NCBI GenBank assembly: GCA_031291305.1
Contig: JARLJH010000015.1
Location: forward strand, 56,769 to 120,768
Direction of reading: 5' to 3'
DNA: 64,000 nucleotides
Origin: Rhodoferax sp.
GTDB taxonomy: Bacteria; Pseudomonadota; Gammaproteobacteria; Burkholderiales; Burkholderiaceae_C
In this document: positions 13,852-41,061 of the stretch, piece after piece
Layout: each line of letters starts with the position of its first letter
How positions within the stretch are numbered: the first letter of the stretch is position 1
The notes under the pieces: generated by a model
The model's database searches: none
What the model was told of the DNA's origin: nothing
Seen by the model: only the letters and a program-made list of their open reading frames with translations
Translations under genes and position numbers: made by a program

Positions 13852-13869
13852 ATGCAACTTTCGCGCCAG
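13852..13869 (-). promoter_or_regulatory. Sigma-54 (-24/-12) promoter of the Tat/HPr-rel-A operon
   Basis: CTGGCGCGAAAGTTGCAT matches the TGGCAC-N5-TTGC consensus with GG and GC exactly 10 bases apart and only one departure in the -24 box. It lies 85 bases upstream of ATG 13767. Sigma-54 promoters need an activator; PrsR, encoded about 3 kb away, is one. Confidence 0.8.
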
Positions 13870-13931
13870 CGGGAATATATTGTTGAATTTATTGATGAAT
13901 CTTCTTTCTAAGAGATTAAGAACCAGCCAAT

Positions 13932-13948
13932 TGTAAAAAAATTCGACA
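13932..13948 (-). promoter_or_regulatory. Upstream activator site, copy 1 (proposed PrsR box)
   Basis: Plus strand TGTAAAAAAATTCGACA. The TGT begins 65 bases from the -24 GG. The same TGT-N11-ACA pattern with a CGACA end occurs 64 bases from the sigma-54 promoter of the PEP-CTERM gene. Confidence 0.65.
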
Positions 13949-13976
13949 GTTAAATCAGTGTCACAACAGGGTCACG

Positions 13977-16751
13977 TTAGAGTTGTTTTAACAACTCCGC
14001 CACCTCTTTCTGCCCACCAAACTTGTCTCCCAGCTTGACCAATTCGTCCAATTGTGCCTTCGCCAAATCTTTCTTGCCACCCTTGATCTGGATCTTGGCA
14101 AGGTTTAGCTTGAACATTGGGTTCTGCGGTTGCAGCGTTACCACCTTGGTTTGTAAATCCACAGCCTTGGCATAGTCGCCCTTGTCGGATAACAGCATGG
14201 CCAGCGTGTCCATGAACGCGGGCTGGTTCGGTGCCAGGGCGTTTGCTTTTTCGGCCAAAGCTATCGCTCCGTCCTTGTTCAACCGGGCCGAGACCCAAGC
14301 CAGATTGTTGTAAGCGATCGGGCTGTTGGGCAGCAGCTGGGTCACTGTTCTGTAAAGCCTTTCGGCGGTGGCGTAGTCTTTGCTGGCAATGGCGCGATCA
14401 CCTTGGTAAAGCATGAAGGCTGCATCTTTGGGGTTGTCCTTTTGCCAGGTGACGGCAAACTTGTCCGCTTCTGCCCCCTTGTTAGAAGTCATGAGCACTG
14501 AGTGCAACTTGATCGCCAACTCGGGTGATGTTGCATGTTTGAGTCCTTCACGGTAGGCGCCAGCGGCGTTGTCCCAATTTTTCTGGGATGCATAAATGTC
14601 GCCTTCCAGCACGTAGCCTATGGCCTGTTTGGGGTCCTGCTTCTGCATGGTCTTGGCAGTCGTCAGGGCGCCTTGGACGTTCTTGGCATCAAGGTCCAAC
14701 ATGATGCTACCCTTTTGAGCCTGTTGCAGATCGGGCTTGATTTCAAGCGCTTTGCGCAGGCTGGCTGCAGCACCCGCTTTGTCCTTGGCTGCCATCTGCA
14801 CATCAGCCAGACGTACATACGGCATCGGCGACAGGGGTTGCATGTCCGCCAGCTTGTTGTAGCTGGCCATAGCCTGATTCAAATCACCGGAAGCCTGTTG
14901 GGTACGGCCCAGCGCGTCCAGTAATTCTGGGCTATCCGGAATGGTGGCTGCAGCGTCCTGCGCCGTTGAAAGGGCCTGCTTGGCGTTCTTGTCGCGCAGG
15001 TAAAAATCAATCAGTAGCAGACGTGGTGCGACATCTGTGGGGTGGGCAGACACGGCATTGCCGATCAGTTTTGCCACTTCGTCTTTTGGGGCTCCCACTT
15101 TGGCAGCCAACTCCGCTTGGGCCAGCAGAGCCTGGGAATTCTTCGGGTCTTTGGCCAGCACCGCATCAAAGCGGTCTTTGGCATCCTGTGGCTTCTTGTC
15201 GGCCAGGTCAAGACCGGCCAGGCTGGCAACAGCCGGGAAGAACATGGGGTCGATCTTTAGGGCTTTCTCAAAACTTTGGCGGGCACCCGCTACATCGCGC
15301 TTGGCCAGCAGCACCCGCCCTCGAAGGTTGGCAGCCAGGGGCTTGTCAGGCTGTTTTTTCTCAAGACCATCGATGGCTTTGAGGGCCTTGTCGAATTCTT
15401 GACGTCGCAGGTGTGCGCTGATCAGTGCCAGATCGGCCGTGATGCCTGCATCAGATGCAGAAATGTTTTGCAGTTCACCAAACGCACTGTCCACCTGCCC
15501 GCTGATCATGTGCGTCAAGGCCAAAGAGGTGCGGTTTCTCGCGTTCTTGGGGTCTTGCTGCGTGGCCTTGGCAAAATATGCTTCAGCATTTTTAACGTCG
15601 TTGTTTTGCAAATAGACCTCTCCTGCCACGGCATACAGGGCTGGGTCCACGTGGTCACCGGTCAAACCGGGTTTCAGAGTGTCGATGGCCTTGGCTGGCT
15701 GGCCCGAGCGAAGGTAGGTCACGACCAGCAGGCGTCGGGCCAGCGGCAGGCCGGGCGCGGCTTGCAGGGCCTGGCTTAGATAGGTTTCGGCTTGCACTGG
15801 CGAATTAAGCTCAAGTTCAATGGCGCCTGCTAGTTGCAAGGCTTGCACGTTGTTGGGCGCCACCTTCAGGACTTGCTGCATCAGATCGCGCGCGGTCTTC
15901 ATGTCTTTTTGTTGGTACGCCAGGTTCGCTTGCAGGAATTTGGTTTGCGGGTGATTGGGCGCGACTTTTTTTAGCTGGTTGATCTGGGCGATTGCATCTG
16001 GCAGATTGTTTTGCTGTAGCAGTAACGAAATCACAGCGGCCTGGCCAGCCAGGAAATCTGGCTTGATGTCGACGGACTTTCGATAAGCCGCCAGCGCCTC
16101 GGCGGGTTGATTTTTGGCGTAGTGCAGCAAGTCACCTTTTAACTTCCAGGCTTCATAGCTTTGCGGTGTTTTGGCAAGTATCTCTTCTGTCAGCGCCAGC
16201 GCACCGTCAAAGTCGCGTTGCCCGGCCTTTTGTCGAGCCTGGATCAGCTTGGCTGGTGCGTAGTCAGGAGCCGCAGTTAAAGCTGCGGTTAGCGACGCTT
16301 GCGCTGGTTCAGCCTGACCTTGGACAGCATAAGCCATCGCCAAGCTGGTCAAAAACCCAGCTTCCGCAGTCTTGTCTGTCAGCGCGATCTTGCCAAACTC
16401 GTCGGTGAGTTTCTTGGCTTGACCTTGCGCCAGCAAGGCGTTCGCCAGCAGCGGCATGACCGGGTCTTGCGGGTACTTCAGCGCCAAGGCTTTGCGCAAT
16501 TCAGTTTCGGCTCCCACCGGATCGCCGCTGTTGAGCAGGGCTTCGCCCAGTAAAAAGCGTGCTTCGGGCATATCCGGGTTCTTTTGAAGCGCATTTTTGA
16601 TCTGGATGGCGGCGGCCTTGTTGTCGTTCTTGGCCAGGTAATCTTTGGCAGAGCTGATCATGGCCTCGGGTTTGTCGCCACAACCGGCAAGCATCAGTGA
16701 TACCAACAGCGCGGATAGGACTACCTGAGCCGGAGAAGTGCGAAATGCCAT
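13977..16751 (-). CDS. prsT: PrsT, TPR-repeat lipoprotein of the XrtA/PEP-CTERM system
   Basis: A 924-residue protein with a lipoprotein signal (VSLMLAGCG, Cys at about 24) and about 20 TPR units covering the rest (for example KAAAIQIKNALQKNPDMPEA, AYRKSVDIKP). PrsT proteins are encoded with PrsK and PrsR in exosortase-A genomes and probably form a periplasmic scaffold for polysaccharide or PEP-CTERM protein export. It follows prsR by 36 bases in the same direction, giving a prsK-prsR-prsT operon. A second, unlipidated homologue lies at 41084-43915. Confidence 0.9.
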   Translation of the reverse strand: MAFRTSPAQVVLSALLVSLMLAGCGDKPEAMISSAKDYLAKNDNKAAAIQIKNALQKNPDMPEARFLLGEALLNSGDPVGAETELRKALALKYPQDPVMPLLANALLAQGQAKKLTDEFGKIALTDKTAEAGFLTSLAMAYAVQGQAEPAQASLTAALTAAPDYAPAKLIQARQKAGQRDFDGALALTEEILAKTPQSYEAWKLKGDLLHYAKNQPAEALAAYRKSVDIKPDFLAGQAAVISLLLQQNNLPDAIAQINQLKKVAPNHPQTKFLQANLAYQQKDMKTARDLMQQVLKVAPNNVQALQLAGAIELELNSPVQAETYLSQALQAAPGLPLARRLLVVTYLRSGQPAKAIDTLKPGLTGDHVDPALYAVAGEVYLQNNDVKNAEAYFAKATQQDPKNARNRTSLALTHMISGQVDSAFGELQNISASDAGITADLALISAHLRRQEFDKALKAIDGLEKKQPDKPLAANLRGRVLLAKRDVAGARQSFEKALKIDPMFFPAVASLAGLDLADKKPQDAKDRFDAVLAKDPKNSQALLAQAELAAKVGAPKDEVAKLIGNAVSAHPTDVAPRLLLIDFYLRDKNAKQALSTAQDAAATIPDSPELLDALGRTQQASGDLNQAMASYNKLADMQPLSPMPYVRLADVQMAAKDKAGAAASLRKALEIKPDLQQAQKGSIMLDLDAKNVQGALTTAKTMQKQDPKQAIGYVLEGDIYASQKNWDNAAGAYREGLKHATSPELAIKLHSVLMTSNKGAEADKFAVTWQKDNPKDAAFMLYQGDRAIASKDYATAERLYRTVTQLLPNSPIAYNNLAWVSARLNKDGAIALAEKANALAPNQPAFMDTLAMLLSDKGDYAKAVDLQTKVVTLQPQNPMFKLNLAKIQIKGGKKDLAKAQLDELVKLGDKFGGQKEVAELLKQL

Positions 16752-16787
16752 TTATTAATCTCCCGTTGCGTTGTAAATAATACAAAC

Positions 16788-18149
16788 TTACTTCAAACCC
16801 AGCCTGTGCATCAGGTCATAAAGCGTAGGACGGCTGACGCCGAGAAGCTCTGCGGCCTTGAGGACATTGCCATTGACACGTCCCAAAGCTGCGAGGATGG
16901 CCGTCTTTTCAGCGTTGTCGCGGATGATGCGCAGATCCAGCGAGGTGTCAATCGCGTTGGGCGCCGTCGCCTGAAGGCCAACATCGTCAGCAGTGATCTG
17001 GTTGCCGTCGGCCATGATCACCGCGCGCTTGATGCAATTTTCGAGTTCTCTGATGTTTCCGGGCCATGGGTGCGATTCAATGGCGTGCACAGCGTCTTCG
17101 CTGATCGACAGCGAGCCACGATTTTGCTCTTGTGCAAAACGTCGGGTAAATGCGTGGGCCAACAAGGCCGGATCGCCCACTCGATCGCGCAGTGGCGGAA
17201 TGTTGACCACAATCTCTGCCAGACGGTAGTACAGGTCTTCGCGAAACTTGCTTTCCTTGCTCAAGGCCATCAGGTCTTGATGGGTGGCGCAGACGATGCG
17301 TACATCCACTGCAATTTCTTGCCGACCACCCACGCGTTCGATGGTTCTTTCCTGCAAAAAGCGTAGCAACTTAGCTTGTAGCTGAAACGGCAAATCGCCA
17401 ATTTCATCCAGCATCAAGGTGCCATGGTTGGCAGTCTCTATCTTGCCCAGTGTGGTTTTGGCTGCGCCGGTAAAGGCCCCCTTTTCATAGCCAAACAGTT
17501 CACTTTCGAGTAGGTTCTCGGGAATGGCGGCACAGTTGATGGCGACAAACTTCTCACCTCGCCGAGGCGAGGCCTGATGTAGTCCGCGCGCAAGAACTTC
17601 CTTGCCGGTACCACTTTCACCTAGCAGCATGACCGTGGCATTGCTGGTCGCCACTTTTTCGATGGTTCTGCAGATCCGCATCATTTGCGGATCACGCGTG
17701 GTCAAGCCAGCCAAGGCGTCAGGTTGGTGCAATTCCCGCAGGCGCTTGTTTTCTGCCTGCAGCTCAAACAGCCGGAAGGCGCGTTCCACCGTCAGGTTCA
17801 GCAGTTCGGGCTCGAAAGGTTTGGCAAAAAAATCGTAAGCCCCCATGGCCACCGCCCGCAACGCATTGGCTTGATCGTTCTGGCCGGTCAGCACAATGAC
17901 CTTGATGTCGGAATCGAAGGCCATGATCTGTTCCAGCAGCTTGAAGCCCTCCGACACCGAGTCCGCATCCGGCGGTAGTCCCAGGTCCATGGTAACCACT
18001 GCGGGCAAATTTTTGCGCAACTGCAACAGGGCGCTTTCCCGGTCGCTGGCGGTGACCGATTCGAACCGGTCTAACGACCACTTGATCTGTTTTTGCAGCG
18101 CCAAGTCGTCTTCAACAATCATCAATGGGCGAGATTTTTCGGCTGTCAT
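16788..18149 (-). CDS. prsR: PrsR, sigma-54-dependent response regulator
   Basis: 453 residues in NtrC order. A receiver with phospho-acceptor Asp55 (VVTMDLGLPP) and an FFAKPFEP switch region, an AAA+ domain with Walker A GESGTGKE (177-184) and the sigma-54 contact loop GAFTGA (224-229), then a C-terminal Fis-type helix-turn-helix (VLKAAELLGVSRPTLYDLM). PrsR is the PEP-CTERM-system regulator. Its start overlaps the prsK stop as ATGA. Sigma-54 promoters with a shared upstream motif elsewhere in this window are probable targets. Confidence 0.93.
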   Translation of the reverse strand: MTAEKSRPLMIVEDDLALQKQIKWSLDRFESVTASDRESALLQLRKNLPAVVTMDLGLPPDADSVSEGFKLLEQIMAFDSDIKVIVLTGQNDQANALRAVAMGAYDFFAKPFEPELLNLTVERAFRLFELQAENKRLRELHQPDALAGLTTRDPQMMRICRTIEKVATSNATVMLLGESGTGKEVLARGLHQASPRRGEKFVAINCAAIPENLLESELFGYEKGAFTGAAKTTLGKIETANHGTLMLDEIGDLPFQLQAKLLRFLQERTIERVGGRQEIAVDVRIVCATHQDLMALSKESKFREDLYYRLAEIVVNIPPLRDRVGDPALLAHAFTRRFAQEQNRGSLSISEDAVHAIESHPWPGNIRELENCIKRAVIMADGNQITADDVGLQATAPNAIDTSLDLRIIRDNAEKTAILAALGRVNGNVLKAAELLGVSRPTLYDLMHRLGLK

Positions 18150-20257
18150 GCGCTTTCCATGGAATGAAGGTCTGATTGTGTTTGGGTTTCAAACAGAGGC
18201 AGTAGCAGCGTCACGGTCGTTCCGCGGTTGACTTCGCTCTGGACGTCGATCTTGCCACCCAATTCCTGCACGTACTGAAAACTTTCATAAGCGCCGATGC
18301 CCATGCCGGCCTGCTTGGTGGTTTGAAATGGTTTGAATAGCCGGTCGCGGATGAATTCCTGCGTCATGCCCTGCCCGGTGTCGGTGACTACAACACGGGC
18401 CTGACCACCGGCGCGCTCCAGCGTCAGCCCAACATGGCCGTTCAGGTCCGTCGCATCAAATGCATTTTGCACGACGTGGCCAATGATACGTTCCAGTCGT
18501 TCCTCGTGGCCACGGGCATCCACAGACTCAATCATCTGGATTTCGAGCGTGCGTCCGCGCGCCGCTGCCACCGCTTGGACTCGCTGGACGATGGCGCTCA
18601 GGTTGACGCCGAACGCTTTGCCTGGCGGGGTGGCACCCTCGCGCAATTGCAACATCAACTGACGCATGCGTTCCAGCGAGTTTTCAACCGTCATCAGCAT
18701 GTCCTGCTGGAATTCGGGGTTGCCGCTCAGTCGCTTGGCATTTTTCATCATGAGCGAAAGCTGGGTGACGATGTTTTTCAGGTCATGCACCACAAAAGCC
18801 GACATTTTGTTGAAGGCGTCAAATTTGCGCACCTCCAGCAAGGCTTCGGTCGCCTGCATCTGTGCCAGGTAGCTGGCTGCCTGTTGACTGGCGGTTTTGA
18901 GCAGGTCGTTGACCTCCCAGTTCACCTCAAACACGGTGCGCGCGCTGGCCAGCACCACCAAGCCGATCAACTCATCGCCAACCATCAATGGCACCACCAG
19001 CCAGGCTTGGGGCAGCTCCTGCAGCCAAACGGGGATTTTGAGCGAGCCATAGCGTCTGGAAAAAGATCGGTACTCCTCCAGGTTAAGCAGCTTGCCGCCG
19101 TCGGCCAGGTACTCGCACATGGGGGAGTGGAGGTCCTCCTTGTCGGGGACACGCGTCAGATTCCACGTCGCTGTTTGGCTGAAAGCGGGCTCACCCTTGA
19201 CACGTAGCCACAAGCCCCCGCCGGGGCTTTCAACCATCTCCGCCAAGCCACGCACCACCTGCTGCCCCAATTCCTGCGGCGAGCTTTGGGCGGACAGGGC
19301 GCGCGTGAATTTCAGCCATTCTTCGCGGTAGTCGTAGCGATAGCGAAAAAAATGTTTGCCCAGAAAGAGCCGCAGTTTTGCGCGCATGGTGCCCGAGAGC
19401 GCCAGAACCACGAGCACAATCAGTGCAAACACCACCAAACCAAGTTGCAGTGCGCGTCCCCATTCCCCACCAAAGTAGCGTACGTAATAGCCCACTCCGG
19501 ATATGAAAATCAGGTAAATCCCGGCAATCAGCAGCGTGGCGGAATGAAAGGCCGCTTTGGGTGACAGTTGGATCTTGGAGATCCAGTCACTGCGTCGCGT
19601 GCTGGAGAGCAACAAAAGCGGCATCATCAGGGCGTGCACGCCGCCTCGGATGCTCAGGGCGTCCTCATCTGGGCGATTGAACAAAACGGCTTGCGAAAAC
19701 AAATACAAATCAAACAAAAAAGCGCCCGCCAGCCCCAGCGCGAGCGGTTTGATGTTCCAGCGTGAGTCTTCGGTGGCATTGCGAAAGACCTGCTCCAGCA
19801 ACACCAGCGCAAACACCGGCATGGCCATGGCGCTGAAAAGGATCCAGCGCGTCGGGTCACCCAGCGCGCGTACTCCAACCATCGTTAAACCCAGCGACAA
19901 AGGGCCGAAAGCTGCCAGCAATATGGCCCAGATGACCAGGCTGCTGGTTCCAGTCAGCCCTTTGGCTGGACGGTTGGCGTGTAGCAGGATGAGTAAGAAA
20001 GCAAACCAGGCTGCATAGCGCAACTGATCCGTCAGTGTGGTCAGTAGCCACAACAGGAGCGTTTGAGTCAGGGTCTGCAACAGCATTGTCCAGCCCCACA
20101 AGGCGCTCAGTGCAACTGCTGCCAGTATTGCCAACTTGCTGGCTTCACGTGGAATCTTCAGATAGCCTGCCTGCAGCAGGCGTAGAGAAAAAATCAGGTA
20201 ACACCCCCCCGCCAGGCCACCGCTCCAGGCGGTCAAATCGAGGATGCCGCTGTTCAT
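18146..20257 (-). CDS. prsK: PrsK, membrane sensor histidine kinase of the XrtA/PEP-CTERM system
   Basis: 703 residues. The first ~290 contain about eight hydrophobic segments, then a GAF-like domain (about 320-470), an H-box with His491 (FVVHDLKNIVTQLSLMMKNA) and an ATPase domain with VVQNAFDAT (N box) and DTGQGM (G1). The H-D-L-K-N form is characteristic of PrsK. The kinase should phosphorylate PrsR, whose gene overlaps it. It starts 14 bases after the stop of the sugar transferase gene. Confidence 0.93.
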   Translation of the reverse strand: MNSGILDLTAWSGGLAGGCYLIFSLRLLQAGYLKIPREASKLAILAAVALSALWGWTMLLQTLTQTLLLWLLTTLTDQLRYAAWFAFLLILLHANRPAKGLTGTSSLVIWAILLAAFGPLSLGLTMVGVRALGDPTRWILFSAMAMPVFALVLLEQVFRNATEDSRWNIKPLALGLAGAFLFDLYLFSQAVLFNRPDEDALSIRGGVHALMMPLLLLSSTRRSDWISKIQLSPKAAFHSATLLIAGIYLIFISGVGYYVRYFGGEWGRALQLGLVVFALIVLVVLALSGTMRAKLRLFLGKHFFRYRYDYREEWLKFTRALSAQSSPQELGQQVVRGLAEMVESPGGGLWLRVKGEPAFSQTATWNLTRVPDKEDLHSPMCEYLADGGKLLNLEEYRSFSRRYGSLKIPVWLQELPQAWLVVPLMVGDELIGLVVLASARTVFEVNWEVNDLLKTASQQAASYLAQMQATEALLEVRKFDAFNKMSAFVVHDLKNIVTQLSLMMKNAKRLSGNPEFQQDMLMTVENSLERMRQLMLQLREGATPPGKAFGVNLSAIVQRVQAVAAARGRTLEIQMIESVDARGHEERLERIIGHVVQNAFDATDLNGHVGLTLERAGGQARVVVTDTGQGMTQEFIRDRLFKPFQTTKQAGMGIGAYESFQYVQELGGKIDVQSEVNRGTTVTLLLPLFETQTQSDLHSMESA

Positions 20258-20271
20258 GTTGGCAAGGAGTC

Positions 20272-21642
20272 TTACTGCGCGCCTTTGCGCATCACAACCA
20301 CACCGATGGTTTCGAACATCACCACAATGTCTAGAAGCAAAGTGTGGTTTTTGACGTAGTACAGATCGTATTGCAGCTTCTCAGCCGCGTCCTCCACCGA
20401 TGAGCCATACTGGTAACGCACCTGCGCCCACCCTGTGACACCTGGCTTGACACTGTGACGAATCGCGTAATACGGGATTTTCTGTGTCAACTGGTCAACG
20501 AAAAACGGGCGCTCAGGCCGCGGCCCCACCATGCTCATCGAGCCTGCCAGTACGCTGAAGAGTTGCGGCAACTCGTCAATACGCACTTTGCGGATCACCC
20601 GTCCTACACGTGTCACGCGGCTATCTTGGGCAGACGCCCAGCGCGGTTTGCCATCTTTTTCAGCATCAGTTCGCATGCTACGGAACTTGACAACATTGAA
20701 AAGTCGCCCGTTTTGTCCCACACGCTCCTGAAAGTAAAGAACGGGGAAGCCGTCCTCCAGCACAATCAGGATGGCCGTGATCAGCATCACCGGCAAGGTC
20801 AGCACGATCAGGATGCTGGCACACACGATGTCAAACACCCGCTTGGTCACAGCCCGTACCCAACCAGTGCTAAAGCCGTCACCAAAAATAAGCCAACCTG
20901 CTGATAGGGATTCGAGATGGATCTGCCCGAGCGTCCTCTCAAAGTGGGTGGCAATGTCCACCACCTTGACGCCTTGCAACTTGCAGTCCAGCAATTCCCG
21001 CAAAGGCATGCTGCCGCCGCGTCGTTCGGACAAGGCCACCACAATTTCATCCACCTGCTGATCCTTGACGACGTCGGTCAGCGAGTTGGTCATGGACAGC
21101 AAGCCCCAGGCCGAAACCAGGGCTTCTTGTTCATTGGGACCGGCGTAGTAACCCACGAGGTCCACTGTGGGGTCGAACTTGAGCAAGGCCGTGCCCACCA
21201 GCTTGGCGCGTGCGCCAGTGCCAAAGATCAGCACTCGTTGGCGCATCACGTTACGCGGTGTGAAATGCATGGCATAGACCCGCAGCAACAGCATCAAGGC
21301 AACGGCTGCGAGTAACGTGAGTGCAAACGATCTCGAGTCGTAGAACCTTGTAGCCAAAACCAAAATGATGGGTGCCATACACAGCAGCGCCAACACCGCG
21401 CGAGCGCTGGTTTGGCCCAATGATCGGGTATGAACGCGCTGGTAAAAACCAAGACTTGCGTTCAAGGCCATCATCGTGACGGCCAGAATCAGGAAGGTGG
21501 CAGCAGCAGCAGAGCCCACAGGTGCGGAGGGTGTCTGGTGTGCTGAAGTGGAGATCAGAGCAATTAACAGCAACAGGAACAGATCCAGCCCGATCTGGAA
21601 CAAAGTTCGTTTATGGAAATAGTGACCGAATATTTTTATCAT
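20272..21642 (-). CDS. Polyprenyl-phosphate sugar transferase, PEP-CTERM-associated (EpsB type)
   Basis: 456 residues: four N-terminal membrane helices, a nucleotide-binding-like region (VLIFGTGARAKLVG), a fifth membrane helix and a C-terminal bacterial sugar transferase domain with FQERVGQNGRLF, KFRSMRTDAE, DELPQL and SMVGPRPERP. These enzymes load the first sugar-phosphate on undecaprenyl phosphate at the inner membrane and so begin each repeat unit. It is the gene just upstream of prsK, linking polymer initiation to the sensor system. Confidence 0.9.
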   Translation of the reverse strand: MIKIFGHYFHKRTLFQIGLDLFLLLLIALISTSAHQTPSAPVGSAAAATFLILAVTMMALNASLGFYQRVHTRSLGQTSARAVLALLCMAPIILVLATRFYDSRSFALTLLAAVALMLLLRVYAMHFTPRNVMRQRVLIFGTGARAKLVGTALLKFDPTVDLVGYYAGPNEQEALVSAWGLLSMTNSLTDVVKDQQVDEIVVALSERRGGSMPLRELLDCKLQGVKVVDIATHFERTLGQIHLESLSAGWLIFGDGFSTGWVRAVTKRVFDIVCASILIVLTLPVMLITAILIVLEDGFPVLYFQERVGQNGRLFNVVKFRSMRTDAEKDGKPRWASAQDSRVTRVGRVIRKVRIDELPQLFSVLAGSMSMVGPRPERPFFVDQLTQKIPYYAIRHSVKPGVTGWAQVRYQYGSSVEDAAEKLQYDLYYVKNHTLLLDIVVMFETIGVVVMRKGAQ

Positions 21643-21713
21643 GAATGTCTCTGCGGATGCGTCCGGTACCTGCTGCTTCTCATGCGTACTTAAAGCAGCC
21701 CCGTGGTCATTAC

Positions 21714-23036: not shown

Positions 23037-23070
23037 GTTCTATCCCTTACGATCATTTTCGTGAACAATA

Positions 23071-31212: not shown

Positions 31213-31257
31213 GACTCCTTGGTCTGTCACTGTTGGATGCGAGCTGCAGCAAACCCG

Positions 31258-31311: not shown

Positions 31312-31344
31312 GTGAACTGCTTTCCCCTAGCCAGAAAGACCCGC

Positions 31345-33347: not shown

Positions 33348-33373
33348 CTGTGACTCCCGATTTATATGAAAAA

Positions 33374-33427
33374 ATGGCCTATAGCCCATATGAATAAAGG
33401 GTAAGAAGCTATGTATTTCATATCAAA
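33374..33427 (-). repeat. Dispersed repeat, copy 5
   Basis: On the minus strand ATACATAGCTTCTTACCC ... CATATGGGCTATAGGCC. It lies between the lytic transglycosylase and the barrel gene. Confidence 0.6.
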
Positions 33428-33432
33428 ATGAA

Positions 33433-34716
33433 TCAGAAGTAGTACCGGAACAGCGCCTGAATGTAGCGGCGCTGCGCCATTGCACCAAAGTCACTGCTGT
33501 CATCCCCGCTGGCCAACTGCCATTGCACGGCAATCTCGGACTTGTCCAACCGGTAGCGCGCCTCCAGCCACGACAGCTTGCTGTGGTCATCCAGGTTGTA
33601 GCGCAGCATGGCTGTCAGGTCGAGCTTGTTGATGAATGCGTCCTGCCAGGTGGCACGCAGAAAAGCTGCCTGGCGGGTGGCCAGGTCAAGTTCCTCCTGG
33701 ATCAGTTGGCGGTAGCTGGCGTAGTCCAACATCGAACTGCTGCGTAAGGCGTTCCACACCGCTTCGTCCACTGCCGCACCGTTGTAGTGGTATTCCGCCG
33801 TGATCGACAGCTTGCTGGCGCTGGTGTAGGTCAGGCCGGTGGCCAGCCGGTTGCGAAAAGCCTCGTCCTGCGCCACGGTGGACGACACAGGCAAGGCTTG
33901 CGCCAGAAGACTTTTTTGCCGTCCGCCAGACCACTCGAACTGAGCCACGGTGGCGTCGTTGACCAGCATGGTCAGGTTCATCCCCATCTGTACGGGCTGG
34001 CGTGCGTCGCCATACAGCACGAATTGCGGGTTGAAGTTGTTGGCGAGTTGCTGGCTGGCCGCCAGCATCCAGCGATTGCGGTTATTGGTGGCGCCAAAGT
34101 CAGCGCTCCAGTCAGCGTTGCTGGGTGCATCGGCCACCTTGGGGGCGACGATGGCGGTCAGGGAACCGCCTTTCCACAGGGTCTGCCCACGCAACATCGC
34201 TGTTCCCATGCGGTTTTCGCGGATGGCATTGGGGTCGACCGAGGTAATCGCGCGGTTGGCCCCCTCGCGGAAAAAATCGGTTGGGTTGTAGCCCATGGCC
34301 GCGCCATAGCGCACGTTGATGCGGCCCACGTCCAGCACGCGGTCACTCTGCGGCTGCCAGCTCAGGTAGGCTTCTTTGAAGCTGTTGAGGGTCTGCTGGC
34401 CCAAGGCGTCACTCTGGTGATTCAAGTCCAGCCGGTCCGACAACACGCCGCGCAGCTCGGGGGTGAGCTTTTTGTCAAACAGCACGTCCAGTGACAGTCG
34501 CTGGGTGTCTTCGGTCGCATCCGGCACGCCTGCCTGGTGCACAGTGGTGCGTCCGGCGGTGGCTTCGGTGAACACGCGCCAGGCGCTGGTCTCGGCTTTG
34601 ACGGTCTCGGCGGTGGTATCGGCCAGATTCAGTGCATCGTCCTCCGCCACATCAGCTGCGTAAACAGGAGCGCATAGCGCAATAGATATAAGGGCTACAG
34701 CCTGTTTTTGTCTCAT
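33433..34716 (-). CDS. Outer-membrane beta-barrel protein, function unknown
   Basis: 427 residues. Signal peptide (VALISIALCAPVYA), then repeated aromatic beta-strand patterns through to a C-terminal Phe (YIQALFRYYF), the outer-membrane assembly signal. No enzyme motif is seen. It follows the LolA-like gene by 2 bases, and GGAG in the upstream stop region serves as its ribosome site, so the two are one unit. It probably handles lipid, lipoprotein or polysaccharide export. The first codons overlap a partial dispersed repeat (34672-34710). Confidence 0.72.
   Translation of the reverse strand: MRQKQAVALISIALCAPVYAADVAEDDALNLADTTAETVKAETSAWRVFTEATAGRTTVHQAGVPDATEDTQRLSLDVLFDKKLTPELRGVLSDRLDLNHQSDALGQQTLNSFKEAYLSWQPQSDRVLDVGRINVRYGAAMGYNPTDFFREGANRAITSVDPNAIRENRMGTAMLRGQTLWKGGSLTAIVAPKVADAPSNADWSADFGATNNRNRWMLAASQQLANNFNPQFVLYGDARQPVQMGMNLTMLVNDATVAQFEWSGGRQKSLLAQALPVSSTVAQDEAFRNRLATGLTYTSASKLSITAEYHYNGAAVDEAVWNALRSSSMLDYASYRQLIQEELDLATRQAAFLRATWQDAFINKLDLTAMLRYNLDDHSKLSWLEARYRLDKSEIAVQWQLASGDDSSDFGAMAQRRYIQALFRYYF
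34672..34710 (+). repeat. Dispersed repeat, copy 6, partial
   Basis: GCGCAATAGATATAAGGGCTACAGCC on the plus strand, antisense to the signal-peptide codons of the barrel gene. Only the tail half is clear. Confidence 0.4.
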
Positions 34717-34718
34717 GA

Positions 34719-35504
34719 TTACTCCGGCTTGAAATTGGGCAGATAGTCACGCTGCAGCCAGACTTCGGGTACATCGCGAAACACAAAGTCGGTGTAACGC
34801 ATCACCGTCACCCATTTACTGTCGAGACCGTCGATGATCACCATCTCGGTCGGGCGCTCCTTGCCCAGTTGGGGCTGGTATCGCCGGTAGTACACGGTCT
34901 TGAGCAAGCGGTCGCTCTCGGAATAAAACTTGCCTTTGATAGGCTGGTTGTTGGCGCTGTCTACCCAGAATTCGATGCGGTTGTAGGTGGCATCCGGGCT
35001 GCTGGCATTCAGGTCCAGCCGCGTACTGTGATGCATCTGACGATTGCCGTCAGCGATTTCTTCTTGTGCACCCACTTTGGCTTGGTAGTCCTTGGCCAGG
35101 TTGACCGTCACCACGTCGCCATTGGAGGCCTGCCCCATCAGTCGCTGCTGCGGCGACAGGCGCACGCTGGCGCGGCTGGCCGGGTCATAAAACCAGAAGT
35201 CGTTGCCGCTTTTGAGCATCAGCTTACCTTCGTCGCGCGCCGGTGCCACAAAACGAATCAGCGTGCGGAACTGGCCGCTGCGGGCGTCGGACTTGGCGTA
35301 ACTGGCCAGGGTGCTGGTGTCAGTCTGCTTGCCGCCGCGGTATTCAATCAGCGTCACGGTCACGCCGAAGGGTTTGTCGGGGTTGCGCACCGCGTCGCTG
35401 GCTTGCAGCAAGGCCTGTGCATTGGTTTGCGGGTTGCCCTGCGCCATGGCGAGGGCGCCCAGCAGCAAGCCCAACAAAAAAATCGTCAGTCGGTGCAGTG
35501 TCAT
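34719..35504 (-). CDS. Outer-membrane lipoprotein-sorting-like (LolA-type) protein
   Basis: About 261 residues. Signal peptide LLGLLLGALAMA, then the LolA-like fold: KFYSESDRLLKTVYYRRY, FWVDSANNQPIKG and DGLDSKWVTVMRYTDFVFRDVPE. In many bacteria such proteins travel with an RND lipid exporter (MMPL); none is here. It is paired with the barrel protein downstream. ATG 35504 has ACGGAG in front of it and puts the signal peptide first. Confidence 0.8.
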   Translation of the reverse strand: MTLHRLTIFLLGLLLGALAMAQGNPQTNAQALLQASDAVRNPDKPFGVTVTLIEYRGGKQTDTSTLASYAKSDARSGQFRTLIRFVAPARDEGKLMLKSGNDFWFYDPASRASVRLSPQQRLMGQASNGDVVTVNLAKDYQAKVGAQEEIADGNRQMHHSTRLDLNASSPDATYNRIEFWVDSANNQPIKGKFYSESDRLLKTVYYRRYQPQLGKERPTEMVIIDGLDSKWVTVMRYTDFVFRDVPEVWLQRDYLPNFKPE

Positions 35505-35643
35505 GTGATAACTCCGTAGGCAGTAAGGATCTTTGTGCGTGTCCGGGCAGCAATGCAGTTTACTCACATGCTGGTGTTTTGTAGACGCAAAGAAACGGCA
35601 GCTTCAGCGGTCTGTTGCCAGGGCACCGATAGAATCCCGCGCC

Positions 35644-36099
35644 ATGACCCAAATACTCCTGGTGTGCATGGCCAATGTTTGCCGCTCTCCCATGGCGCTC
35701 GCGGTGGCACAGCAGCTGGCCCGCAACCAGGGTCGCACCAGCAAACTGAGGTTCGACTCCGCTGGCACCCATGTACCAGGTGCCAAACGCATCGACGCAC
35801 GTGCGCAGGCGGTGTTGCTCAAGCGCCAATACACCCCAGGCAAAACCCGATCACGGCAGGTGAGCGCGAAGGACTTTGAGCGGTTTGATCTGATTCTGGC
35901 CATGGATGAGGCGAATTTGGCAGCGCTCAAGCGCCTGTGCCCGCCAACACGGCACGACACATTGCGTTTGCTGATGTCATTTGCGCCAGAACTCGGCGTG
36001 ACGGACGTGCCTGACCCGTATTACGGCGATCTGGCAGGTTTTGAGCGTGTGCTCAATCTGATCGAGGCAGGCATCAAGGGTTTGTTGGCACAGGTTTAA
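35644..36099 (+). CDS. Low-molecular-weight protein-tyrosine phosphatase (Wzb-like)
   Basis: About 151 residues. The catalytic P-loop VCMANVCRSP (C-x5-R-S) is near the N-terminus, and the general-acid motif DPYYGD lies near the C-terminus. Such phosphatases act on the bacterial tyrosine kinase of polysaccharide export (Wzc/BY-kinase). No BY-kinase is in the window. It sits next to the UDP-glucuronate epimerase gene, convergent with it. Confidence 0.88.
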   Translation: MTQILLVCMANVCRSPMALAVAQQLARNQGRTSKLRFDSAGTHVPGAKRIDARAQAVLLKRQYTPGKTRSRQVSAKDFERFDLILAMDEANLAALKRLCPPTRHDTLRLLMSFAPELGVTDVPDPYYGDLAGFERVLNLIEAGIKGLLAQV

Positions 36100-36117
36100 A
36101 GCCCAGGCAGCACGAAC

Positions 36118-37125
36118 TTATACCTGGTAGTAACTGCGGTACCAGGCAACAAAGCGGTCAATGCCGTCCTGTAGCGGGGTGCTTGGTGCGAAGCCCACCC
36201 AATTGTTCAGTGCGTCGGTATTGGCAAAGGTGGCGGCTACATCGCCCGGTTGCATGGGCAGGAAGCGCTTGTCAGCGGTTTGGCCCAGTGCCTTTTCAAT
36301 GCAGCCAATGAAGTCAAGCAGGGGCACCGGGCTGCTGTTGCCGATGTTGAAAATCCGATAGGGGGCATGGCTGGTGGCCGGGTCAGGCTGCGCACTGTCG
36401 TAGCTGGGGTCCGGGGTGGCGATGCGGTCCACCGTGCGCAGCACGCCTTCCACGATGTCGTCAATGTAGGTGAAGTCGCGTTGCATCTGGCCGTGGTTGA
36501 ACACGTCAATGCTGCGCCCCTCCAGAATGGCTTTCGTGAACAGGATGGGCGCCATGTCTGGTCGCCCCCACGGCCCATAGACGGTGAAAAAGCGCAGTCC
36601 AGTGGTGGGCAAGCCGTAGAGGTGGCTGTAGGTGTGCGCCATCAGCTCGTTGGCTTTTTTGGTGGCTGCGTACAGGCTGGCCGGGTGGTCCACGCTGTCG
36701 TGCTCTGAGAAAGGCATTTTGGTGTTGCCGCCATACACGCTGGAGCTTGACGCATACACCAGATGCGCAACCTGGTTGTGGCGGCATCCTTCCAGCACAT
36801 TGGCAAAGCCGACAAGGTTGCTGTCAATATAGGCCAGCGGGTTCTGCAGCGAGTAACGCACGCCAGCTTGCGCGGCCAGATGAACGACACGGTCAAAGCG
36901 CTCTATCTTGAACAAATCCGCCATGCCGACGCGCTCGGCAACATCCATCCTGACAAAACGGAAATTGGCGTGGGGCGCGAGTTGCTGGAGCCGATTTTCT
37001 TTCAGCGACACGTCATAGTAATCGTTGATGTTGTCCAGCCCGATCACTTCGTCACCGCGTGCCAGTAGCCGCAAAGCGACTGCCATTCCGATAAAACCGG
37101 CAGCACCGGTTACCAATATTTTCAT
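36118..37125 (-). CDS. NAD-dependent epimerase, probably UDP-glucuronate 4-epimerase
   Basis: 335 residues of the extended SDR family: [16 protein letters not shown] (NAD site), the Ser in SSSSVYGG and the catalytic YAATKKAN (YxxxK), [15 protein letters not shown]. The [11 protein letters not shown] motif and the ADLF region are typical of UDP-glucuronate/galacturonate epimerases (LspL/CapI type). It would turn the UDP-glucuronate from the ugd product into UDP-galacturonate for the polymer. Confidence 0.88.
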
Positions 37126-37134
37126 AAATGCGTG

Positions 37135-37485
37135 TTAGTCGTCCGCTTGTTCGTCGGGGTCTTCTGCATTGTCAGTATCGGTGAAAAATGAGCTTGACAG
37201 CTTCACGGCAATGCCAAGCATGCCTAATTTTTGCTCTACCCGCACCACATCACCTGCGCAAACCATCTTCAGTTTTTCGCCATTGACGAGGACTTCCACC
37301 ACAAAGCGCACCCTGGAGCCAGGCGCCTGATCCGCCGTGGTTTCGAAATAAACCCCCGTGGCACTGACATTGCGGGTCAGGCCGATTGCGCCATTGATCT
37401 CCACCGGCAATTCCGACGTGAATCTGTCTGCGGACCTGCCAGATTGACCCTTCGGGCCGGGGAGTGTGGTTTGCTGACTGTTCAT
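37135..37485 (-). CDS. PilZ-domain c-di-GMP-binding protein
   Basis: About 116 residues, almost all a PilZ domain. Both binding motifs are intact: RSADR (R-x3-R) and NVSATG (N-x-S-x2-G). It binds c-di-GMP and would act on a partner. It starts at ATG 37485 and has a candidate sigma-54 promoter and a PrsR-type box upstream. It is divergent from the FeeM-like/PilZ fusion gene and follows the epimerase by 9 bases in reading direction of transcription. Confidence 0.88.
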   Translation of the reverse strand: MNSQQTTLPGPKGQSGRSADRFTSELPVEINGAIGLTRNVSATGVYFETTADQAPGSRVRFVVEVLVNGEKLKMVCAGDVVRVEQKLGMLGIAVKLSSSFFTDTDNAEDPDEQADD

Positions 37486-37527
37486 GTCTCTTGGAGGTTG
37501 AATTTGTTCTGAACGACGTCTATGCAA

Positions 37528-37544
37528 AGCAGGAACTGTGCCTA
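37528..37544 (-). promoter_or_regulatory. Candidate sigma-54 promoter of the PilZ gene
   Basis: TAGGCACAGTTCCTGCT: GGCAC is exact, GG and GC are 10 bases apart, and the -12 box is CTGC rather than TTGC. It lies about 45 bases before ATG 37485. Confidence 0.5.
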
Positions 37545-37628
37545 TGAAAATGATAGCACTCCGATCAGTTCTAAAACAACGAGTTGCAGCACTTTGCACA
37601 GTCGATCCCGCCACTCCGAAAAGCGATG

Positions 37629-37645
37629 TGTCAATAAATCCGACA
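37629..37645 (-). promoter_or_regulatory. Upstream activator site, copy 3 (proposed PrsR box)
   Basis: Plus strand TGTCAATAAATCCGACA, the same TGT-N11-ACA with CCGACA end as the other two copies. It starts 87 bases from the -24 GG of the candidate promoter, about two helical turns farther than in the other cases. Confidence 0.5.
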
Positions 37646-37737
37646 TTTACAGCCCAGTGTGCAAGACTATCATTGCAAGTTGTGTTGTGACGCAGCTGGT
37701 CACTTTATTGGTGGCATCTTGAAGGAGCAAACAACGT

Positions 37738-39036
37738 ATGGGCTTTGGGCGGTCTCTCAATCAGAGTTTGCGCAAACTGTTTTCTTTTTTGCCGCGCCAG
37801 ACCCGGTTCGCCGTTTATCGCTCTTTTGTGGAGTGCGATGCCAATCCTGATCCTCGGCTGGTCCTGAAAATTGCCGAGACGCAGGAAGAGCTTGAGGCCT
37901 GCTTCAAACTGCTGCACGACGCTTATGTGGGCAGTGGCTTCATGAAGTCTGACCCTTCTGGCATGCGCGTCACCATCTACCACGCTCTGCCCACCACCAC
38001 AACGCTATGTGCCAAGTTTGACGGTGAAGTGGTCGGCACCCTGTCGCTTATTCGGGAGAGCCTTTTCGGTTTTCCGCTGCAAGCCATTTTTGACTTGAGC
38101 CACGTGCGCGAGCGCAAGGGGCAGATTGCCGAAGTGTCTGCTCTGGCCGTGCACCCCAAGTTCCGTAAGACCGGCGGGACCATTCTGTTTCCGTTGATGA
38201 AGTTCATGTACAACTACTGCACGACCTTCTTTGACACCCGCCATCTGGTGATTGCGGTCAACCCCAATCGCATTGAAATGTATGAGTCGCTGCTATTTTT
38301 TCGGCGCCTTACCGAAAAGTCAGTCGATAACTACGACTTTGCCAATGGTGCACCAGCCGTTGGCGCCACACTGGATCTCAAATACGCCCCAGCGAAGTTC
38401 GCGAAGGTGTATGGGCGCAAGCCCCTGCGCCGCAACATGTACCACTACTTTATTGATGCGGTCATGCCCAACATCGTGTTGCCCACGCGGCGTTACTTCA
38501 CGACGAATGACCCCGTCTTGACCCCCGAACTGCTGGACTATTTCTTCAATCAGCGTACCCGAGTTTTCGAGCAACTCAATGAACACAAAAAGCAGTTGCT
38601 GCATGCCATCTACAACCTGGATGCGTTCAAACAAGTGCTGCCCACCATCGTCCCGCATGCTGACCAACAGATGCAGCGAAGCCACCAACGCTACTCGGTC
38701 AAATGTCCGGGTACGTTTGACGTGCAGGTAGCCGCGGGTGACCAAGTCTTTCAACTGCTGGTGGTGAACCTCTCGTTTTACGGTTTTGAGGTGCATTCAG
38801 ATGCCACGCTGCCATTGGGCATCTGGGGGGAGGCAACGATCGAACTCGGCAAATCCGAGAAATCCTTCATCAAGGCAATTGCGGTGCGAGACCGGGCCAA
38901 TGGGGTGTCCGGGTTTTACGGCTTCCAGTTGGCTGAGCCCGATCTGGCCTGGCGCAAATTTGTCAACGCCATGCAGTCGGGAACCACGCATGATGACCTG
39001 GACAACGCCACACGGTTTCTGCCTGACGCGGCTTGA
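37738..39036 (+). CDS. FeeM-like N-acyl amino acid synthase fused to a PilZ domain
   Basis: 432 residues. The N-terminal ~240 match the FeeM/autoinducer-synthase-like GNAT fold seen in exosortase-associated N-acyl amino acid synthases (ACFKLLHDAYVGSGFM, LSHVRERKGQIAEVSALAVHP, LVIAVNPNR). The C-terminal ~110 residues are a PilZ domain with RSHQR (R-x3-R) and NLSFYG (N-x-S-x2-G) intact. It probably makes an acyl-amino acid from an acyl-ACP and answers to c-di-GMP. RBS GAAGGAG lies before the ATG. The acyl carrier protein and ligase are about 6-10 kb away. Confidence 0.85.
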   Translation: MGFGRSLNQSLRKLFSFLPRQTRFAVYRSFVECDANPDPRLVLKIAETQEELEACFKLLHDAYVGSGFMKSDPSGMRVTIYHALPTTTTLCAKFDGEVVGTLSLIRESLFGFPLQAIFDLSHVRERKGQIAEVSALAVHPKFRKTGGTILFPLMKFMYNYCTTFFDTRHLVIAVNPNRIEMYESLLFFRRLTEKSVDNYDFANGAPAVGATLDLKYAPAKFAKVYGRKPLRRNMYHYFIDAVMPNIVLPTRRYFTTNDPVLTPELLDYFFNQRTRVFEQLNEHKKQLLHAIYNLDAFKQVLPTIVPHADQQMQRSHQRYSVKCPGTFDVQVAAGDQVFQLLVVNLSFYGFEVHSDATLPLGIWGEATIELGKSEKSFIKAIAVRDRANGVSGFYGFQLAEPDLAWRKFVNAMQSGTTHDDLDNATRFLPDAA

Positions 39037-39073
39037 GCATCACGGCTGCTGAGCTGCTCTGCTTGGCACCCCT

Positions 39074-39859
39074 TCAGTGAGTGGTATTTCTCTCCATCAT
39101 TTCCAGCACATAACTTGACGGTACCGCATAGCTGATGCCTGAGGGGTGGCTCAGCGCTGATTCGCGCGTGTCCTTGATCAGTACCATGTTCACCACGCCC
39201 AGTACTTCACCTGTGTCCGGGTCAAACAGTGGTCCGCCACTGTTGCCGGGGTAGGCTGTTCCATCCAATTGGAAAATATCAAACGGACTGTTGCTGCGAA
39301 CGCTGCGGATGACCTCGGGATTGAGTTGGCTGGCAGTGGGTGTGGGTATCGCCGCAGGAGCAATAGACGATATCGTGGCCCGATGCGTGACCGGTGAAAA
39401 GCCCAGCGCCCCGCCAATCGGGAAGCCCATAAACGCCACTGACCGCCCTTCCTTAACCTTGTCGGAACGACTCACCTTGAAAGCCGTCACGGCAGGCCCG
39501 TCAAAGCGCAACAGCGCCAGGTCATGCAAAACATCCACTTCCAGCACTTTGGCCGGTCTGGTTTGCCACAGATTGTTGCCAGCCCTGAGTTGAACCACCA
39601 AGGTGGCGTCCGGGTCTGCATCGGAGGGTGGGACCAGCACATGGGCATTGGTCACCAATCGGTTTCCCTCGCCGTCATTACCCACCACAAAACCGGTGCC
39701 GCGCAAGGTAAAGCGCGGGCTGTTGGTGGCCTTGTAGGTGCCCACAATGGCAATGGCAGGCTTGACCCTGGCGATGGTACTGACGAGATCGGCGTGGGCG
39801 GCGTGAAAAATCAGGGTTGCCAACATCGCTGCCAGCCAGTTGGCGGGCTTGGACGTCAT
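39074..39859 (-). CDS. Exported trypsin-like serine protease
   Basis: 261 residues. Signal peptide (LAAMLATLIFHAAHA), then the catalytic His in TNAHVL, Asp in LHDLALL and Ser in GNSGGPL, so the triad is complete. No PDZ domain follows, unlike DegP. It lies just downstream of the PEP-CTERM gene and may process or mature an envelope protein. RBS CAGGAAAAC precedes the ATG. Confidence 0.9.
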   Translation of the reverse strand: MTSKPANWLAAMLATLIFHAAHADLVSTIARVKPAIAIVGTYKATNSPRFTLRGTGFVVGNDGEGNRLVTNAHVLVPPSDADPDATLVVQLRAGNNLWQTRPAKVLEVDVLHDLALLRFDGPAVTAFKVSRSDKVKEGRSVAFMGFPIGGALGFSPVTHRATISSIAPAAIPTPTASQLNPEVIRSVRSNSPFDIFQLDGTAYPGNSGGPLFDPDTGEVLGVVNMVLIKDTRESALSHPSGISYAVPSSYVLEMMERNTTH

Positions 39860-40008
39860 AGTTTTCCTGGTGCGCCAGTCATGCGCTGATGTTAATGTAT
39901 CTCGGAGTTTGACTAAATGATGACTGTGGATATATACGGCAATCCAACCGTGTTACCCACGCTCCAATTTTGGGTAGCGCTTCTTAAGAAATAGCAAAAA
40001 TTTTCAAG

Positions 40009-40842
40009 CTAGCCCGCCATCGTCACGATAGGCAAGTTTGCCCTTTTTGCGGCACGACGAGAGGCACCCAACGCAAGAACGCCAATACCCAACAGCAACA
40101 AGGACGAAGGCTCTGGCACATTGCTGGAGGCAAGTGCCACCCGCATGACGGTCTGTGACCCCGCCAACGGCGATGACTGGTACACCGTATAGACGAAGTT
40201 GCTGATGGCACCCAAGCCCACTGCAGCCCAACTGCCCGTATTTAGCGCGTTCAGATACAAGTTAACCTGAGTCAGGAAAGTGGAGTCTGTGCCCGCATAC
40301 TTGAGGCCTCCGGTGGCGGCTGAATAGCTACCGGATGTATCCCCTTCAATTTCCCAGATGGCATATTGAAAAGCTGCCGATTTGGTCGTGCTTACCATAC
40401 TGTCCGTATAAGCATGGGAATACAGCTCCGTCAACTTGTTCAAAACGACGGTTGGTGTTGTGTTGGAGTCATCGTACTTGCCAGCAATGCCATTCTGCTG
40501 GTAATTACTAGTTGCAAATAAATTCACATAGCCTGTTGTCACAAAGTTGCTCAGGCTCGTCGTGGTGTAGCTAGCTCCAGAGGTCAAGTAGGTCAACGGA
40601 TCAAGACAGTAAACCCAGAATTGATCACCGGTACTGTCTTTCACTTGATAAGCACCAGTTTCAACGGTAGTGCTGGATTTGGTACCAAATTGCAGCGTCT
40701 CTGGCTTATAGAGGCCTGTACCTACTGGTCCCGTCAGGGTCGTAGAGCTTGCATGTGCCTGTATGCCACCCAAGGCCAAAAACGCCACTGCAACGGCACC
40801 AACAATCTGGCGCGCTTGTTTGAGCATAGGGATGGTTTTCAT
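40009..40842 (-). CDS. PEP-CTERM domain surface protein
   Basis: About 277 residues. Signal peptide (VGAVAVAFLALGGIQAHA), a Ser/Thr/Tyr/Gly-rich body of low complexity without enzyme motifs, and a C-terminal sorting signal: NVPEPSSLLLLGIGVLALGASRR, that is V-P-E-P, a hydrophobic helix and a basic cluster, with an extra ~12-residue tail. Exosortase A would cut at the PEP motif and deliver the protein to the surface. The start is ATG 40842; a GTG 9 bases upstream is possible. Its promoter is sigma-54 type. Confidence 0.92.
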   Translation of the reverse strand: MKTIPMLKQARQIVGAVAVAFLALGGIQAHASSTTLTGPVGTGLYKPETLQFGTKSSTTVETGAYQVKDSTGDQFWVYCLDPLTYLTSGASYTTTSLSNFVTTGYVNLFATSNYQQNGIAGKYDDSNTTPTVVLNKLTELYSHAYTDSMVSTTKSAAFQYAIWEIEGDTSGSYSAATGGLKYAGTDSTFLTQVNLYLNALNTGSWAAVGLGAISNFVYTVYQSSPLAGSQTVMRVALASSNVPEPSSLLLLGIGVLALGASRRAAKRANLPIVTMAG

Positions 40843-40965
40843 GGTGTTCACGCTTTCTGGGATTCGCTCAAATTCAAACTCTGGTCAGTCCGCCTGAAAT
40901 GGCAAACCCGACCGCACGTCTTTGATTGGCAAAAATTGACGTTAATCGCAGGCATGTTGCTTGAC

Positions 40966-40983
40966 AAGCAAAAATTAAGCCAA
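40966..40983 (-). promoter_or_regulatory. Sigma-54 promoter of the PEP-CTERM gene
   Basis: TTGGCTTAATTTTTGCTT: GG and GC exactly 10 bases apart, -12 TTTGC exact, -24 TTGGCT close to TGGCA. The expected transcript start is near 40956, leaving a 110-base leader. Confidence 0.75.
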
Positions 40984-41044
40984 TTCCGTAGATTTATGAT
41001 TTATATGAGAAAAATTAAGTTTCAAAAGATAACAACACAGTAAT

Positions 41045-41061
41045 TGTTAACTTTTCCGACA
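41045..41061 (-). promoter_or_regulatory. Upstream activator site, copy 2 (proposed PrsR box)
   Basis: Plus strand TGTTAACTTTTCCGACA, starting 64 bases from the -24 GG. With the flanks, both this copy and copy 1 share AATTGT ... CGACAGT over 22 bases, 16 of them identical. Confidence 0.65.

Follow-up and report, generated by a model that had tools for sequence, protein, structure and literature searches.

The PEP-CTERM box and its counterpart in Rhodoferax

That PEP-CTERM genes are targets of the regulator PrsR is old knowledge, predicted in 2006. In the parts covered here, Haft et al. 2006 (PMC1569441) describe a "PEP-CTERM box" made of a 17-nucleotide (nt) motif 1 with the 3' end TTTACA and a 17-nt sigma-54 motif, separated by a mean spacer of 62.8 nt (standard deviation, 10.6; range, 32 to 92); the pair lies upstream of 99 of 167 proteobacterial PEP-CTERM genes, and PrsR, PrsK, and PrsT were named by phylogenetic profile, with PrsR as the predicted activator. 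Two further studies, likewise covered in part, concern related promoters. In Aquincola tertiaricarbonis, the PEP-CTERM gene pepA is RpoN1 dependent and has a mapped -24/-12 start (PMC9850573), and in Desulfovibrio vulgaris the five PEP-CTERM targets predicted for the regulator DVUA0057 were enriched in vitro by DNA affinity purification-chip (DAP-chip) (PMC3333781), a study in which a figure legend says that the binding-site motif was not validated for the regulators shown. Here we analyze a 64,000-nt stretch of Rhodoferax sp. (the window) in which three sites of this kind stand before the HPr-rel-A operon, a PEP-CTERM gene, and a PilZ gene, with all three sites and their target genes on the minus strand. 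Our reading, to which we assign a probability of roughly 0.86, is that PrsR uses these sites as enhancers for three sigma-54 promoters, that they correspond to the known PEP-CTERM box, and that one signal would serve PEP-CTERM proteins, HPr-rel-A, and PilZ. To the known promoter class we add the HPr-rel-A operon, as a conserved member, together with the promoter of the PilZ gene and the helical stepping of the spacers.

The box of the HPr-rel-A operon (TGTCGAATTTTTTTACA, 13932 to 13948) scores 28.5 bits on its own with a matrix trained on PEP-CTERM promoters and is followed, across a spacer of 63 nt, by the -24/-12 site TGGCGCGAAAGTTGCA (13853 to 13868), whose consensus score of 11/12 is the best in the window. 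Before the PEP-CTERM gene, the box TGTCGGAAAAGTTAACA (41045 to 41061; 19.0 bits alone) and the -24/-12 site TGGCTTAATTTTTGCT (40967 to 40982) are 62 nt apart, and before the PilZ gene 85 nt separate the box TGTCGGATTTATTGACA (37629 to 37645; 22.4 bits alone) from the -24/-12 site AGGCACAGTTCCTGCT (37528 to 37543). The GG-N10-GC sigma-54 motif is present at all three sites, and the boxes, 17-nt imperfect palindromes with the matrix consensus TGTCGGAATTTTTTACA, end in TTTACA, TTAACA, and TTGACA, respectively. The first two sites are placed just 3' of TPR genes. A sequence-only reading of the window had located GG-N10-GC promoters at 13852 to 13869 and 40966 to 40983 and 17-base TGT-N11-ACA sites at the three box positions, had counted 16 of 22 matching bases with flanks included, and had reported that a PrsR with GAFTGA is encoded here. 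The coordinates and the count proved exact when repeated, on the minus strand, and the encoded regulator matches TIGR02915 with GAFTGA at residue 224. The idea of a third copy without a promoter was rejected, as AGGCACAGTTCCTGCT supplies a -24/-12 site 85 nt downstream of that box.

Judged by its sequence, the element is identical in kind to the PEP-CTERM box that Haft et al. described in 2006 (PMC1569441), and we rejected its novelty on that ground. With the system described in the covered parts of that paper, the window shares the 17-nt motif 1, the spacer, the GG-N10-GC motif, and the PrsR, PrsK, and PrsT genes, and its spacers of 63, 62, and 85 nt all fall inside the published range of 32 to 92 nt. 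Aquincola pepA (PMC9850573) is like the window's PEP-CTERM promoter, with a predicted enhancer and a position beside prsT; that study deals with a PEP-CTERM gene, and no work on HPr-rel-A was met in the parts of it covered here. The sequence-only reading had further proposed that the motif is the PrsR enhancer and that the PEP-CTERM gene and the HPr-rel-A operon form one regulon; it was right on the sites and very probably right on PrsR as the regulator, and the comparisons below support the regulon as a conserved link between predicted promoters.

The literal pattern is weak evidence, given that TGT-N11-ACA occurs 15 times in the window, and TGT-N9-CGACA occurs 222 times in the genome versus 133 for a reversed control pattern. 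Either pattern alone was rejected as a marker of the element, being too frequent. In the literal form given by the sequence-only reading, the 17-mer is too loose; the composite of box and -24/-12 site is strong evidence. In a crude consensus scan of the whole window (box, gap of 20 to 150 nt, -24/-12 site), the three sites top the list of pairs with scores of 22, 19, and 19; two further pairs tie at 19, one of them using the promoter of the HPr-rel-A site, and simulated 64-kb sequences contain a mean of 0.3 pairs scoring ≥19. With a box-plus-promoter matrix trained on 35 PEP-CTERM promoters, from 63 PEP-CTERM loci examined, the HPr-rel-A, PEP-CTERM, and PilZ sites score 39.8, 38.1, and 33.4 bits. 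Since one of the 35 training boxes is the PEP-CTERM site of the window, the 38.1 of that site is slightly favored; the HPr-rel-A and PilZ sites are not in the training set. The next-best pair in the window reaches 24.2 bits, and 27.2 is the highest score among 40 simulated sequences of 64 kb, each scanned on one strand. Because the three sites outscore the other window pairs and all 40 simulations with the matrix, the composite is not a chance pattern. The 24.2-bit pair, which starts at 16788, was considered as a box driving prsT and rejected: its -24/-12 site lies inside the prsT frame, and its score is below the best simulated one.

The HPr-rel-A operon as a conserved member of the promoter class

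We compared HPr-rel-A loci from two collections: an order set of 300 genomes, which contributed 49 other HprK loci plus the window, and a named set consisting of the best 80 of 182 relatives among the candidates listed. Removal of 6 duplicates from these 130 loci left 124 distinct ones, of which the order set supplied 50 and the named set 74. At a call threshold of ≥25 bits with the PEP-CTERM-trained matrix, the first HPr-rel-A gene is preceded by a box at 93 of the 124 (42/50 in the order set, 51/74 in the named set), and no training box-promoter pair is among the 93. Only 8 of 1158 control windows from the same loci reach 25 bits. On the opposite strand of the operon-upstream window the count is 0/124, versus 89/124 for the operon strand in the same scan, which was made before duplicates were removed. 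Boxes were found in Magnetovibrio, Magnetospira, Rhodospirillales, Rhodobacterales, and Malonomonas records, besides records that we take to be beta- and gammaproteobacterial.

The operon also co-occurs with the regulator. Across the 300 genomes of the order, HprK_rel_A is present in 50, PrsR in 72, and both in 46 (Fisher test, 1e-30, kinship ignored); the scan behind these counts scored only 5 to 7 candidates per genome and may therefore have missed some genes (G092, counted among the PrsR-negative genomes, has PrsK). In the named set, PrsR was found in 46 of the 50 genomes checked (45 over the cut-off); the choice of these 50 from the 80 was made so that every one of the 21 box-less genomes with complete upstream DNA was covered. 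The sequence comparisons suggest that the HPr-rel-A operon is a conserved member of the known promoter class, co-activated with PEP-CTERM genes across many Proteobacteria, and this we consider new. We found no prior report tying HPr-rel-A to a PrsR/sigma-54 promoter in the open literature, with broader listings covered in part, and although NCBIfam gives the system its name, an open-literature search for the HPr-rel-A name in three forms returned no paper.

Helical phasing of the spacers

Spacers, counted without preference for any length, fall into discrete groups in both promoter sets: 50 to 52, 60 to 64, 73 to 77, 84 to 86, and 95 to 97 nt for the 35 PEP-CTERM boxes, and 51 to 53, 61 to 66, 72 to 78, 81 to 89, and 92 to 97 nt for the 93 HPr-rel-A boxes (outliers, 104 and 120 nt). 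The shared classes at approximately 52, 63, 74, 85, and 96 nt are one helical turn apart. The best period is 11.2 nt for PEP-CTERM boxes (R = 0.81) and 11.0 nt for HPr-rel-A boxes (R = 0.65), which is about the B-DNA repeat, and none of 5000 smoothed resamplings reaches either R value. Thinning the HPr-rel-A loci to an HprK identity of <60% leaves 50 boxes with a period of 10.6 nt and R of 0.65 (0/2000 resamplings). NtrC activates the sigma-54 promoter of K. pneumoniae nifLA in a helix-face-dependent manner (cited in PMC7408454, in the parts covered), and a phasing rule of this kind is therefore to be expected here; that case concerns one promoter studied by experiment, whereas the phasing here is read from 128 natural promoters (35 + 93). 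We found no earlier report of helical phasing across a whole regulon in literature listings covered in part. The helical steps supply a rule for designing PrsR promoters and sharpen the calling of the regulon in other genomes.

The box and the first gene of the HPr-rel-A cassette

The HPr-rel-A operon opens with a gene (13072 to 13767, minus strand) for a 231-amino-acid protein that has a twin-arginine-like leader and no family in Pfam or NCBIfam. When a profile was built from the genes that follow the box, it recovered this protein family in 122 of the 124 loci (weakest E value, 1.3e-4) and did not find it in L083 and L095. At eight loci this gene is present solely downstream of the kinase gene or on the opposite strand, and in seven of these eight the box stands before the displaced gene or a copy of it (at L248, before the second of two copies); it does not at L257. 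As judged from gene order, the box travels with the first gene of the cassette. This association, the elements themselves, their conservation, and their phasing are seen directly in the compared sequences.

The leader of the family is twin-arginine-like, with R24 and R25 nearly invariant in 50 aligned sequences; the window protein has a C-x2-S-x3-S motif, and Ser65 is the sole invariant residue of the alignment. Searches of Pfam and NCBIfam with 50 members assigned no family, giving two stray matches per library, each in a single member; one of the Pfam strays is TAT_signal (E value, 0.007). The product of 13072 to 13767 was rejected as a PEP-CTERM protein, with no NCBIfam (0.001) or Pfam (0.01) match and no place among the genome-wide PF07589/TIGR02595 hits. 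Its predicted structure has a mean predicted local distance difference test (pLDDT) score of 62 and is confident only in a C-terminal helical part (approximately residues 147 to 215), and a Foldseek search with this model gave 13 matches with E values ≤10, none of them ≤0.001. By these profile searches, an undescribed protein family travels with HPr-rel-A.

A proposed mechanism of co-activation

We infer PrsR as the binder at the HPr-rel-A and PilZ promoters, control by phosphorylation, DNA looping, and the use of sigma-54 in this organism. The kinase PrsK would phosphorylate PrsR, which in that state would bind the 17-nt box some 50 to 97 nt upstream of the -24/-12 site. A short DNA loop would bring the AAA+ ring of PrsR, with its GAFTGA, to the sigma-54 polymerase, and the loop would be productive only with box and promoter at a fixed relative helix face; ATP hydrolysis by PrsR would then drive open-complex formation. 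One signal would in this way turn on PEP-CTERM matrix proteins, the HPr-rel-A operon, and, here, the PilZ gene together. The link to PrsR says when HPr-rel-A is probably made, namely with the biofilm or floc matrix. It also points to a likely substrate gene, by which the function of HPr-rel-A becomes testable.

A more tentative idea is that HPr-rel-A might be a second, PEP-CTERM-independent output of PrsR, in which the PqqD-like chaperone would hold the first protein while the HprK-like kinase phosphorylates it, perhaps at Ser65; after further decoration by the nucleotidyltransferase and export, the protein would become part of the extracellular matrix that also contains the PEP-CTERM proteins. 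The analogy is with the kinase PsmK and the nucleotidyltransferase PsmN, which modify a serine of the lasso peptide pseudomycoidin with phosphate and hexose, although the hexose is possibly added by a host enzyme (PMC9266682, in the parts covered). HPr-rel-A likewise has a kinase and a nucleotidyltransferase-like protein, and the first HPr-rel-A protein may be modified in a comparable manner.

Counter-evidence and alternative explanations

Several observations weigh against the three sites being working PrsR enhancers. No match to rpoN (TIGR02395) was found in the window's draft assembly, which is rated 99.99% complete (the same model matches 4 of 14 control genomes: E. coli, B. subtilis, Caulobacter, and Bacteroides), and a regular expression for the RpoN box matched nowhere in approximately 2.0 Mb of stretches plus the window. 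In a draft, we do not read this as proof of absence; it constrains what can be claimed here about the Rhodoferax genome and leaves the promoter class unaffected, and our guess is an assembly gap. A box is detected at only three of the six PEP-CTERM genes (PF07589 and TIGR02595) of this genome, and 31 of the 124 HPr-rel-A loci lack a box at 25 bits, with upstream DNA incomplete in only 4. Explaining the missing boxes by missing PrsR led nowhere: PrsR is present in 18 of the 21 box-less named genomes, so box loss does not follow PrsR loss. Box-less loci with both PrsR and HPr-rel-A include L202, L213, L221, L228, L247, L252, L255, and L256 (Ideonella, Azohydromonas, Paucibacter, Rubrivivax, and Roseateles), and in such genomes the link is lost or the motif has changed. 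Conversely, 4 of the 50 named genomes are PrsR negative, with a box in L229 (34.1 bits), a weak one in L261 (23.3 bits), and none in the other two, and 6 genomes have no PrsK over the cut-off, with a box of ≥25 bits in G005, G137, and L229, one of 23.3 bits in L261, and none in two. The tie between box and PrsR is one of shared matrix and co-occurrence, not of clean losses, and HPr-rel-A and PilZ are predicted as PrsR targets from sequence alone.

The 17-mer could instead be bound by one or more other NtrC-type activators, so that HPr-rel-A would share the motif and not the PrsR signal. Candidates exist, as five further GAFTGA-like hits (one GAYTGA) occur in approximately 2.0 Mb of stretches from this genome, and the box is kept in three genomes without detected PrsR and PrsK (G005, G137, and L229). 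However, G005 and G137 are drafts whose congeners g13 and g58 have PrsR, the regulator is present in 46 of 50 HprK_rel_A genomes of one order and in 46 of 50 chosen named genomes, and one matrix fits both PEP-CTERM and HPr-rel-A promoters, which makes this explanation unlikely. The failure to find rpoN in the assembly raises a different possibility, that the sites are relics here, with the sigma-54 gene lost and the promoters unused in this organism while still working in its relatives. We regard that as distinctly unlikely, for at least seven box-promoter pairs remain alongside several other GAFTGA-like activators, and it is simpler to assume a gap in the assembly or a gene that was missed. 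Almost no weight falls on the view that the shared motif is chance, a repeated terminator, or the end of an insertion sequence with no regulatory role. Sites 1 and 2 are indeed immediately 3' of TPR genes, and the TGT-N11-ACA pattern is frequent, but this view is refuted by position and phasing as they stand: the box is in place in 93 of 124 loci, the matrix scores exceed those of all 40 simulations, spacers are helically phased, and the box stands before the displaced first gene in 7 of 8 loci.

Genes of the window and the PilZ promoter

The remaining genes of the HPr-rel-A operon follow the first on the minus strand and encode a PqqD-family peptide chaperone (12798 to 13070, scanned as 12810 to 13073; TIGR04353, 40.5 bits, cut-off 35), an HprK-related kinase A (11890 to 12801; TIGR04352, 369.8 bits, cut-off 200) with H119, K140, and D157 invariant across 13 sequences, and a nucleotidyltransferase-like protein (10793 to 11893; PF14907, NTP_transf_5, 175 bits). 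The four genes, from 13072-13767 to 10793-11893, form a tight run and make up the HPr-rel-A cassette, with TIGR04352 and TIGR04353 both over cut-off. The regulatory genes are also on the minus strand and all exceed their family cut-offs: prsT, encoding a TPR protein (13977 to 16751; TIGR02917); prsR, encoding the NtrC-type response regulator (16788 to 18149); and prsK, encoding a histidine kinase (18146 to 20257; TIGR02916). The PEP-CTERM protein gene occupies 40009 to 40842 (minus strand; PF07589, 30.8 bits, cut-off 20.7); we chose the ATG at 40842 as its start, the longest open reading frame (ORF) beginning with a GTG at 40851. Upstream of its promoter is a second prsT-like TPR protein gene (41084 to 43915, minus strand; TIGR02917, 515.4 bits, cut-off 312.2).

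PilZ proteins are commonly receptors of cyclic di-GMP. The PilZ-domain gene of the window is assigned to 37135 to 37485 (minus strand); its inferred start, at the M of MNSQQTT, lies 3' of the predicted promoter. The -24/-12 site AGGCACAGTTCCTGCT falls within the longest, GTG-started ORF, and we moved the start to 37485 because that ORF, from 37614, would start upstream of its own promoter. Among 20 genomes, 3 contain four PilZ homologue matches, with a box before two and none before the other two. The two boxed homologues are in Rhodoferax records and have the same promoter design (L263, 58% identical, with a single stop interrupting the match; L264, 60% identical); their spacer is 96 nt, versus 85 nt here, a difference of one whole turn. 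On the opposite strand, 93 nt from the third box, is the start of a gene for an N-acyl amino acid synthase of the FeeM type (PF21926; 37738 to 39036, plus strand), and the window's eight best matrix pairs listed include no plus-strand partner promoter for it.

Other boxes in the genome

The three boxed PEP-CTERM genes of this genome are the one in the window (40009; spacer, 62 nt), one on contig C68 (spacer, 63 nt), and one on contig C35 that lies behind a boxed lipoprotein-like ORF (spacer, 73 nt). Strong boxes also stand before a small ORF of 106 amino acids and unknown function on contig C12 (L274:8774, minus strand; spacer, 50 nt) and before a response regulator-like ORF about 330 nt on, on contig C2 (L308:18688, plus strand; spacer, 60 nt). 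These two are the only pairs of >25 bits in 1.2 Mb scanned, and 0.8 Mb more holds none. With HPr-rel-A and PilZ included, the genome has at least seven box-promoter pairs, with spacers of 50, 60, 62, 63, 63, 73, and 85 nt. At L182:1501, a good motif 1 (TGTCGTGATTCTTTACA) has no convincing -24/-12 site; 137 nt further on is an ORF whose beginning, we presume, resembles that of an asparagine synthase-type amidotransferase.

PEP-CTERM proteins with PEPxxY tails (e.g., VPEPETYAMLLAGLG) form a group apart: a PrsR box occurs within 1.5 kb upstream in 1 of 21, versus 32 of 39 for other tails. This comparison used loci L096 to L155 and L001 to L006, leaving out the 6 of 66 that were incomplete, and a matrix trained on boxes from the same loci with class disregarded. 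The difference suggests two separately controlled PEP-CTERM sorting classes in PrsR genomes.

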